The notes beneath the pieces are model-generated. The model was not told the origin of the DNA, did not search any database, and saw nothing but the letters and a program-made list of their open reading frames with translations. This document shows, one piece after another, positions 38,198 to 64,000 of a DNA stretch of 64,000 nucleotides (its first letter is position 1; the number at the start of each line of letters is the position of its first letter). The stretch spans positions 8,556,001 through 8,620,000 of the forward strand of contig NZ_CP070619.1 of the NCBI RefSeq assembly GCF_017068395.1, written 5' to 3'. Position numbers and translations under genes: made by a program. The DNA comes from Rhodococcus pseudokoreensis (GTDB lineage: Bacteria > Actinomycetota > Actinomycetes > Mycobacteriales > Mycobacteriaceae).

Positions 38198-41100
38198 GTG
38201 GTCGAAGCTGTGCCGGGTGGTGACGTGACCGCCGTGGATCGTATTCCGGACGGTGCATTCCCACTCTCCACCGCTCAGCGGGGGATGTGGTTCGCCCAGC
38301 AGCTCGATCCCGACGTGCCCGTCAACATCGCGCAGTGCGTCGAATTGGTGGGTGCCCTCGACGTCACGCTGCTGTCGGAGTCGCTGATCGCCGCAGGCCG
38401 CGAACTCGGCTCCGCGTTCCTCCGCCTCGTCGAGGTCGACGGAGTTCCCTATCAGCTGGTCGATCCGACGCTGGACGCGTCGGTCAGGTTCGTCGACCTG
38501 CGGCACGAGCCCGATCCGAGGGCGGCGGCCAAGGAGTGGATGCGGCAGGAGTACACCACTCCGGTCGACGTGTACCGCGACCGGCTCGTCACCTCGGCGG
38601 TCCTGTGCACCGGGCCGGATCGTCATTACTGGTACAGCCGTGTCCACCACGTCGCGCTCGACGGCATGGGATCGATGACGCTCATCGACCGGACCACACA
38701 GCTGTACACGGCAGCCGTCGAGGGTCGCGCCGTGGCGCCGTCCAAGGCTGCCGCACTCACCGACGTCGCCCGCGTCGACGACGACTACCGGGCGTCGTCG
38801 CGCTACCGGGCCGACGGGGAGTACTGGTCCGAGCGGGTATCGACCATCGGCGAACCGTACAGCCTCGTCGACCGCACGTCCCCCGCGCGGGCACGCAGCC
38901 GCACGACGGGCGGCCAGATCCCCGGCCCCCTCGTCGGCCACCTCGACGCCGCGACGGACCGCCACGACTCGTCGGCCGCGTTCGAAGTCATCGCCGCTTT
39001 CGCCGCGTACCTCGCCCGGATGACCGGACGCGAGGAGGTCGCCGTCAGTCTGCCCGTCACTGCGCGCACCACCGCGCTGCTCCGCCGCTCCGGCGGCATG
39101 GTGTCCAACGTCGTCCCGCTCCGCCTGCACGTGCGCCCGGACATGACGAACACCGATCTGGTGGCAGCGGTCCGGCTGGAAGTCACCGCGGCACTCCGGC
39201 ACCAGCGCTACCCGCACATCGACATCCGGCGCGACGCGGCCACCGAGCATCAGGGCTTCTACGGACCCCTGATCAACGTCATGCTGTTCCACGACGAGAT
39301 CACCCTCGGCAGCATCGTCGGCCGGCTCGAACTGCTGTCCACCGGTCCGATCAACGACCTCGCGGTCAACATCTATCACGGCGTCGCCGGCACCAGCCTC
39401 AACCTCGACCTCGAGGCCAACCCCGACCTGTACTCCGAAGACGTCCTCGACGCCCACCACGCCCGCTTCACCCGATTCCTCGGCGCCTTCCTCACCTCCG
39501 ACACCGGCACACTGCACGGATCGGCGAGCAACGGGCCGCCACGCCCGATCGGCGACCTCCAGATCCTCGACGAGAACGAACGCCGCAGCCTGGCGCCGGC
39601 CGCCGGGCGCGCCGGATTCGCACCGGTCACGCTGCCGGACCTGCTCGTCGGCGCCGTGCGCAGCAACCCGGACGGCGACGCCCTCGTCGCGCCCGGGCAC
39701 GGGACATCCGACGACACCCTGAGCTACCGCGCCCTGGACGAGGCGTCGAACCGGCTGGCCCGTCTCCTGATCGACCTCCAGGTCGGCCCGGAGGTCATGG
39801 TGGCGCTGGCGTTGCCGCGGTCGCGGGAGTCGGTGTCGAGTGTGTGGGCGGTGGCGAAGACGGGAGCGGCGTTCGTTCCGGTCGATCCGAGCTATCCGGC
39901 TGACCGCATCGCGTTCATGCTGGAGGATTGTGGTGCGCCGATCGGTATCACCACCGCCGCGTGGCGGGACGGGCTGCCGGAGTGCACGCACTGGATCGTA
40001 TTGGACGACGACGAGTTTCGGACGACCGCGGCGGTGTATCCCCCGGATGCGGTGACGGACGCCGATCGGACGCGGGCGTTGTCGGTCGATCATCCCGCGT
40101 ATGTGATCTACACGTCGGGGTCGACGGGCCGGCCGAAGGGTGTGGCGGTCACGCACCGGGGTGTGGTGAATCTGGCGGCGGACGAGCGGGACCGTCTGGT
40201 GGTGTCGGCGGATTCGCGGGTGCTGCATTTCGCGTCGCCGAGTTTCGATGCCTCGGTGTTCGAGTTGGTGATGGCGGTGTGTGCGGGGGCGACCCTGGTG
40301 GTAGCGCCGACCACGATCTACGGTGGCACCGAGTTGGCGGAATTCCTTGCCGAGCAGTGGGTGACACACGCGTTCTGCACGCCGGCGGCGTTGGCGTCGC
40401 TCGATCACCGCGGTCTGCACCATCTGCAAACGGTGGTGGTGGCGGGGGATGTGTGCCCGCCGGAGTTGGTGGCGCGGTGGGCGCCGGGCCGGATCATGGT
40501 CAATGCGTACGGCCCGAGTGAGACCACGATCATGTCGTCCGCTACCGGACCGATGGCGCCCGGGCAGTTGGTGAGTATCGGGTCACCGACCGTGGGTGTC
40601 GACCTCGTCGTCCTCGACCATCGGTTGCGTCCGGTCCCGGCCGGGGTGCGCGGTGAACTCTACGTCCTCGGCTCCAGCTTGGCTCGCGGGTACGTGCATC
40701 GGGCCGGGTTGACGGCGGAGCGTTTCGTGGCGAGCCCGTTCGGCACCGGCGCGCGGATGTACCGCACGGGTGACGTCGTCCGCTGGGTGACCGCCCCGGA
40801 CGGGCCTCCGGTCCTGGAGTTCTTGGGCCGCAGTGATTTTCAGGTCAAGATCCGGGGGTTCCGGATCGAATTGGGTGAGATCGACGCCGCGTTGGCTGCG
40901 CATCCGGTGGTGGAGTTCGCCCACACGGTCGGCTATGACGACGGGAGGGGGACCAGTCGGCTGGTCTCTTACGTGCTGCCGGCGCCCGCAACCGACATCG
41001 ACACCCGGGTGTTGGCGGACTTCGTCGGGGAGCGCCTTCCCGGGTACATGGTGCCGTCGTCGATCATGGTGCTGGATTCGCTGCCGCTGACCCCGGCCGG

Positions 41101-64000: not shown

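Follow-up and report, generated by a model that had tools for sequence, protein, structure and literature searches.

The window analysed here, a stretch of 64,000 nucleotides spanning bases 8556001-8620000 of contig C6 (8.73 Mb) in the 9.87 Mb genome of Rhodococcus pseudokoreensis, ends inside a giant nonribosomal peptide synthetase (NRPS) gene, which we call NRPS A. The open-reading-frame list gives it a plus-strand frame at 38156-64000 that is still open at the window end. The first-pass annotation had described a single NRPS frame of at least 8,601 codons, free of stops in the window, with a well-placed GTG, and had suggested seeking the end of the gene to the right. Counting from the GTG at 38198 gives the same number, the sequence AGAGGA lies eight bases upstream of that codon, and the stop is found at contig position 8625271 (window coordinate 69271), 5,271 bases past the window end. 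The complete gene occupies ∼31.07 kb and encodes 10,371 residues from the first GTG, or 10,357 from GTG 38198. The features of the locus are as follows.

31895-32554, left of NRPS A: response regulator
35284..37218, plus strand: lnt, apolipoprotein N-acyltransferase (TIGR00546, 1.4e-87); left border of the site
37124..37927, plus strand: GT2 glycosyltransferase (PF00535), Ppm1-like by position and family; last gene before NRPS A
38198..64000, plus strand: NRPS A as far as the window reaches, the first 8,601 of its 10,357 codons; gene end at 69271, outside the window
38258..39496, plus strand: module 1 starter C domain (PF00668), with HHVALDG; fatty-acyl starter type by its PDB relatives
39656..41368, plus strand: module 1 A and T domains (PF00501, PF00550); code DAFFVAAIM
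41441..44566, plus strand: module 2 C-A-T; code DVWDFILVS; left allele edge within the C domain
44621..47722, plus strand: module 3 C-A-T; code DAWHFGAPT
47873..49249, plus strand: module 3 epimerization (E) domain, [10 protein letters not shown]; TIGR01720 (7.7e-30) and PF00668; clusters with both NRPS B E domains
49307..52399, plus strand: module 4 C-A-T; code DVWDFILVS; C domain groups with two other post-E C domains (D-type acceptor)
52469..55585, plus strand: module 5 C-A-T; code DAFFVGGMM
55652..58792, plus strand: module 6 C-A-T; code DLLTVGGVG
58886..61999, plus strand: module 7 C-A-T; code DAFFVAAIM
62057..64000, plus strand: C domain of module 8 (62057-63409), then the beginning of the A domain, with code DLWHLILVS; remainder beyond the window
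69896-70204 (C6:8625896-8626204), minus strand, outside the window: rbpA, a housekeeping gene between the two giant NRPS genes
70742-97723, plus strand, outside the window: NRPS B, an 8,993-codon frame

Profiles and motifs together give the domain order starter C-A-T, C-A-T, C-A-T-E, six further C-A-T modules and a thioesterase (PF00975, 7.8e-29). PF00668 has ten matches, in order and in one frame, and a scan without module 8 returned eight matches each for PF00501 and for the PP-binding domain. The motif patterns for A7, A10 and the carrier were found in all nine modules and that for A8 in eight of nine; in module 8 the pattern missed A8, yet the A domain matches TIGR01733 (4.6e-128), and the carrier is seen by its motif. 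Because these matches are ordered within a single frame whose G+C by codon position (0.73/0.48/0.85) is of coding type, the frame is not a chance one. In a tree of the 19 C and E domains of NRPS A and NRPS B, three kinds of domain separate from one another and from the ordinary C domains, namely the starter, the post-epimerase and the E domains. The first C domains of the two synthetases cluster together, away from the remaining C domains, and the one that follows the NRPS A epimerase falls among the post-epimerase C domains.

The earlier count of seven full modules, one E domain and the start of an eighth module in the window thus agrees with the profile matches, and the sequence to the right completes module 8, adds module 9 and ends in the gene's own terminal thioesterase. 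A stop or frameshift between modules, which would have spoken against a single gene, is absent from this genome: the frame is open throughout. NRPS A has the ordered C-A-T modules, intact motifs and terminal thioesterase of a modular type I NRPS, and is one intact synthetase of this kind with nine modules, one epimerase and one terminal thioesterase. Its size is not unusual. The same genome holds an NRPS frame of 11,290 residues and 111 PF00668 matches in all, a family-wide E-domain search (251 genomes) includes frames of up to at least 14,997 residues among the matches listed, and R. jostii RHA1 is credited with 24 NRPSs, or 16 NRPS clusters on re-analysis, in the account given in PMC11433410. 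A giant NRPS frame by itself is ordinary for Rhodococcus.

An intact frame could still be silent or non-functional and kept by chance. The gene, with its A-domain motifs, is split over two open pieces in one related genome (G027) and three in another (G010), so decay may be under way somewhere, and no cluster genes of clear use lie alongside it. Against this stand the intact motifs in the source genome and the single open frames of 9,825-10,394 residues in ten of the 14 genomes that carry NRPS A, with one of 9,420 residues in G006, where the contig end cuts it. We consider a silent or non-functional line unlikely. Nine A-domain motifs are counted in 13 of the 14 genomes; in the remaining one, G020, the contig ends within the gene.

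Starter domain and predicted product

The first C domain had been called EntF-like, but among solved structures EntF is the weaker likeness (140 bits): RzmA-Cs scores 209 bits, CDA-C1 190 and ObiF1 161. NRPS A thus begins with an N-terminal C domain of the fatty-acyl starter class, and since the fatty-acyl starters RzmA-Cs and CDA-C1 outscore EntF, an acyl-primed lipopeptide is likelier than an aryl-capped product. The best solved relative, RzmA-Cs (PDB 7c1h/7c1k, PMC7804268), has the HHxxxDG region in common with the NRPS A domain, and the two differ in the residues of the acyl gate. According to the structural account of RzmA in PMC7804268, starter C domains of this type accept acyl-CoA, residues Q136, Y138, M143 and R148 set the acyl length, and shrinking residue 148, together with 136, 138 and 143, lengthens the accepted chain. 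Our alignment places S, V, L and S at these four positions, three of them smaller than in RzmA; by the same rule, the serine in place of R148 predicts an acyl chain longer than acetyl. Because RzmA-type starters use acyl-CoA, no loading gene is needed for NRPS A. Our best inference is that NRPS A is primed with a medium or long acyl chain directly from acyl-CoA. Of the earlier proposal that a stand-alone carrier delivers an acyl or aryl cap, the acylating type of the first C domain therefore stands, while the likeness to fatty-acyl starters makes a separate loader unnecessary.

The alternative is an EntF/DhbF-like assembly line for a siderophore, in which a stand-alone aryl carrier hands dihydroxybenzoyl or salicyl to the first C domain. 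EntF does appear among the solved relatives, and when module 1 alone is compared with the NCBIfam models, MxcG comes first (632.7 bits, cut-off 2300) and EntF third (489.2 bits, cut-off 2400), both far below their cut-offs. The RzmA, CDA and ObiF1 starters nevertheless score higher than EntF, and neither an aryl carrier nor a 2,3-dihydroxybenzoate ligase was found in the 21 reading frames scanned on both sides of NRPS A. An aryl cap thus appears quite improbable. For the left side from window position 29,000 on, the same scan agrees with the first-pass remark that no loading ligase lies there. The corresponding remark on MbtH also holds: the only PF03621 match of the genome (C6:2895502) lies 5.7 Mb away and adjoins another NRPS, so that an MbtH partner, if needed, must be shared.

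Substrate-pocket codes were read by alignment, anchored on module 1, whose code was read by hand at what we take to be the GrsA positions. We sought the codes of modules 1/7, 2/4, 6, 8 and 9 in the literature, and only that of module 9, DVWHFSLVD, was found; it is the enterobactin-type serine code (PMC3795760). Module 9 is accordingly read as serine, the sole NRPS A code with a firm reading.

From the module order, the most likely product is predicted to be a lipo-nonapeptide whose third residue is in the D form. The starter C domain would join a medium or long acyl chain, probably straight from acyl-CoA, to the module-1 residue, and modules 2-9 would add eight residues. Module 4, through its D-type C domain, would accept the module-3 residue after epimerization to the D form. 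By its code the final residue would be serine, and release by the terminal thioesterase would give either a free acid or a lactone.

Two main core alleles of NRPS A

Comparison of the orthologues shows that the middle of the gene differs between them as a block:

42490..58890, plus strand: five-module core, from the C-terminal part of C2 to T6, 16.4 kb; type I in this genome; edges approximate

The type I core, with the epimerase, is present in six genomes (the source genome, G004, G005, G008, G016 and G027); within this type the module-3 code is not constant in its final two letters, and module 2 of G027 falls outside the reading. A type II core, in five genomes (G006, G009, G010, G024 and G026), has the codes DVWHFSLVD, DVWDFILVS, DVWDFILVS, DAFFVAAIM and DVWHLGTVT in modules 2-6 (in G010, module 2 reads DVWHISLVD and module 3 falls outside the reading) and has no epimerase, as judged by A-domain spacing and, in G006 and G010, by the missing motif. 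G019, G020 and G025 have other cores. The codes of modules 1 and 7-9 are the same in both types, with the exception of one letter in module 8 of G016.

We compared the proteins in 200-residue windows. Over residues 1-1400 and 7001-10371 the source genome is 79-99% identical to genomes of both types (G004, G005, G008, G009, G026 and, where present, G027). Over residues 1601-6800, it is 88-98% identical to type I but only 29-83% identical to type II G009, G024 and G026. For the core protein as a whole, the identities are 94-95% to type I G004, G005, G008 and G027, and 54-56% to the same three type II genomes.

Divergence at fourfold sites separates the history of the core from that of its flanks. 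In the core it is 0.09-0.14 within type I (0.12-0.14 between the source genome and G004, G005, G008 and G027) and 0.55-0.57 between types (0.55-0.56 between the source genome and G009, G024 and G026). In the C-terminal flank, the source genome pairs with type II G009 (0.14), while type I G005 and G008 pair with type II G026 (0.09 and 0.11, respectively). Type I pairs that cross these flank groups are therefore closer in the core (0.10-0.14) than in the C flank (0.23-0.32); in the pair G005-G008, which is close anyway, core (0.12) and C flank (0.10) are alike. NRPS B served as a control in six of the same genomes: its divergence is flat over 27 kb and shows no mosaic (source genome-G009, 0.09-0.22; G005-G026, 0.06-0.19; source genome-G005, 0.15-0.28). 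For vertical descent, then, the type I core differs too much from the nearest relative and too little from remoter ones; and because the C-terminal end of the surrounding gene is most like that of type II relatives, replacement of the core by recombination is the best reading.

Trees of the N flank, core and C flank, built from eight genomes, reject one another's topology in all six cross-tests (AU p≤0.0001), while the SH test fails to reject in one of the six (core topology on the N flank, p = 0.055). G027 was left out of these trees, as its longest open piece lacks the first part of the gene, and G006, G010, G016, G019 and G020 were not included. Likelihood scans, limited to residues 700-2000 and 6300-7500, place the edges at residues 1451 and 6907-6908 in five type I/type II pairs (support ranges within 1445-1480 and 6907-6912); in a sixth pair, the source genome against the remoter G024, they fall at 1480 (1451-1488) and 6908. 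On the left, the edge falls within PLFQVMLSF, a conserved stretch of C2; on the right, it immediately precedes the first C7 motif. Because the five pairs share genomes, and because a single replacement that then spread would give equal edges, this agreement does not prove recurrent use of the two points. The N flank of the source genome is itself patchy: type II G009 is the closer match at residues 201-300 and 401-500, type I in most other windows, so an imported tract probably began further left in places. The locus thus combines orthologous ends, a non-orthologous core, conflicting trees and sharp edges, the pattern of a module exchange, with the single SH result as the one non-rejecting cross-test.

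Could the two types instead reflect slow divergence, or an artefact of alignment or assembly? Parts of modules 4 and 5 do keep 66-76% positional likeness between types: against type II G009, the A and T parts of module 4 are 75-76% alike by position and C5 and T5 66-67%, while C3, A3 and C4 reach at most 57%. But the change comes in steps at two sharp points, it recurs in six type I and five type II genomes assembled separately, type I pairs across the flank groups are closer in the core than in the C flank, and NRPS B shows flat divergence. We regard divergence or artefact as very unlikely.

With core replacement retained as the preferred reading, the residual likeness bears on where the type I core came from. 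The type I A2 domain is nearest to A3 and A4 of G009 (76%), and the type I core resembles a sister of the type II core that has undergone strong rearrangement more than it does an insert of wholly foreign origin; it may have been built by several events. Type II is suggested to be the older state in the clade, since the flanks of G024 branch outside and the ends of the G010 gene are 74-82% identical. No donor was found: among the matches listed in the 251-genome search, the best E-domain matches outside type I are 52-53% identical. We also considered the other giant NRPSs of the source genome as donors and rejected them, their best A-domain matches being 52-62% identical in a comparison with several giant NRPS stretches and NRPS B.

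Taken together, the domain content and the comparison of orthologues point, with a probability of about 0.8, to NRPS A being a complete single-protein assembly line for an N-acylated nonapeptide whose core has been replaced by recombination. On this reading the segment from the C-terminal part of C2 to T6 would have been exchanged, while the ends and the nine-module count were retained, and since five central modules are replaced as a block, the peptide core should change.

The lnt-rbpA site

Annotated from window position 29,000 on, the genes left of NRPS A are the response regulator, fxsA, an amidohydrolase, lnt and the GT2 gene; on its right lie rbpA in the opposite orientation, a small gene, NRPS B, a gene of the secretory-lipase family and an NB-ARC/LuxR regulator. 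The response regulator runs against the first-pass statement that no regulator lies on the left, though it belongs, with the amidohydrolase and lnt, to a locus that is conserved also in genomes without NRPS A. As for the expectation that the rest of the pathway lies to the right or elsewhere, the gene finishes on the right with its own thioesterase, and what follows is rbpA, the small gene and a second NRPS. A 335-codon plus-strand frame between the two synthetases was discarded as a gene: it has no Pfam match, its codon-position G+C is 0.72/0.60/0.71, and rbpA, opposite, is the coding frame.

Orthologues of the first C domain of NRPS A, 90-92% identical, are found in R. opacus ATCC 51881, R. 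jostii NBRC 16295, R. wratislaviensis NCTC13229, R. koreensis DSM 44498 and a Rhodococcus metagenome-assembled genome. Across the 28 genus genomes, all of which have rbpA, NRPS A directly adjoins rbpA in 12, follows lnt but lies apart from rbpA in two (G010 and G024), and was not found at the site in 14. In genomes without it, the lnt and rbpA matches are 53 to 4,515 bases apart in the 13 loci showing both (the G007 contig ends before lnt), and tblastn detected no remnants of NRPS A in 12 of these gaps, the 53-base gap being left out. In G010 and G024, the site seems to have been divided by some large insertion or rearrangement. The G010 orthologue (C1:2938997-2968519) consists of open pieces of 2,832, 1,263 and 5,884 residues and lies ∼114 kb from rbpA; that of G027 (C2:7163001-7197000) consists of pieces of 1,880 and 8,589 residues, through sequencing error or decay.

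By its motifs, NRPS B has seven modules, two epimerases, a thioesterase and a starter-class first C domain. This starter (at least 66% identical) lies beside rbpA in 15 of 16 genus loci, G013 being without it, and the start of NRPS B lies beside rbpA in 12 genomes that have no NRPS A at the lnt-rbpA junction. Since NRPS B is the commoner of the two at the site, it has the look of an older and general resident, and NRPS A seems to be either a clade-limited insertion or an old gene lost elsewhere. That the two genes, on the same strand and 1.5 kb apart, work in series as one 16-module line is made very unlikely by the starter-class C domain and the thioesterase motif that each possesses and by rbpA, which lies between them on the other strand together with the small gene, and the occurrence of NRPS B without NRPS A also speaks against it.

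NRPS B carries, after its starter, an additional C-terminal half of a C domain (C6:8628317-8629096; PF00668 positions 191-455, without the HHxxxDG part), which is 87-95% identical in five relatives. Three other giant frames of the source genome (C6:2453161, 2480010 and 6386401) have a similar half, PF00668 positions 190-195 to 455, behind a lower-scoring C domain. A second pair of adjoining giant NRPS frames, of 7,697 and 9,016 residues, lies on the minus strand at C6:2430000-2484000.

Orthologues of the GT2 gene (at least 75% identical) are found in 11 of the 28 genus genomes, all of them among the 12 with NRPS A beside rbpA. We nevertheless rejected it as a pathway gene: G010 and G024 have NRPS A after lnt without GT2, and in G019 (75% complete) and G025 the lnt-linked copy is the only match at E≤1e-40. 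It is more likely an lnt-linked Ppm1. Genomes without the lnt-linked copy have only a relative of 45-49% identity elsewhere, and it is possible that one mannosyltransferase has been replaced by a paralogue.

Proposed core exchange and known systems

The two alleles raise a further idea, which we put forward tentatively and consider possible but on balance doubtful: that the lnt-rbpA site holds a "shuffleable" lipopeptide synthetase, with a fixed head (the acyl chain and first residue) and a fixed three-module tail ending in the thioesterase, between which multi-module cores are swapped among species as allelic cassettes at two recurrent points, PLFQVMLSF of C2 and the start of C7. Were this true, diversifying selection would act on the peptide core, and the two edges would offer NRPS engineering natural fusion points. 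To move several modules at once and keep a working line is a central problem of that field, for which natural fusion points are wanted, and nature seems to have made such a swap in one orthologous gene across named Rhodococcus species. The two core alleles are directly comparable: the acyl head and three C-terminal residues are the same, and the middle differs, with or without a D residue.

It is instructive to compare NRPS A with systems already described. As a shuffling synthetase it would resemble polymorphic surface loci, in which the ends are kept and the middle is varied. Our literature search, which had a 2021 comparative study of rhodococcal NRPSs outside its scope, returned no report of NRPS A or of core exchange at its site. 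Humimycin presumably has seven residues, against nine modules in NRPS A. The humimycin NRPSs of R. equi and R. erythropolis have a C-starter domain, as NRPS A does, and their clusters contain an amidohydrolase, an N-acyltransferase and an MbtH gene (PMC5550956); NRPS A has an amidohydrolase and lnt on its left, but in the locus that is conserved without it, and no MbtH gene nearby. More broadly, an N-terminal C-starter is shared with the Rhodococcus lipopeptide NRPSs surveyed by Ceniceros et al. 2017 (PMC5550956), where lipopeptide hallmarks are reported for 69 of 79 rhodococcal NRPS families and the predicted lipopeptides fall mostly in the R. jostii RHA1/R. opacus clade; the word 'recombination' does not occur in the main text of that paper.

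Exchange within NRPS genes has precedents. In the oci clusters for Planktothrix cyanopeptolins, as described in PMC2533009, the orthologues are near-identical except for an exchanged T2-(E)-C2 region, and an epimerase is present in one of the two; the exchange there concerns one T-(E)-C region in two strains, whereas in NRPS A it concerns five modules, 16.4 kb and several species. Baunach et al. 2021 (PMC8097286) present recombination as a driver of NRPS diversity in which the E domain travels with the D-type C domain; the swaps in their survey are mostly of A-core subdomains, while in NRPS A the unit is a core of several modules, bounded on one side within a C domain and on the other at a T-C linker. 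To these cases NRPS A adds a core difference of five modules, seen across species at a single locus.
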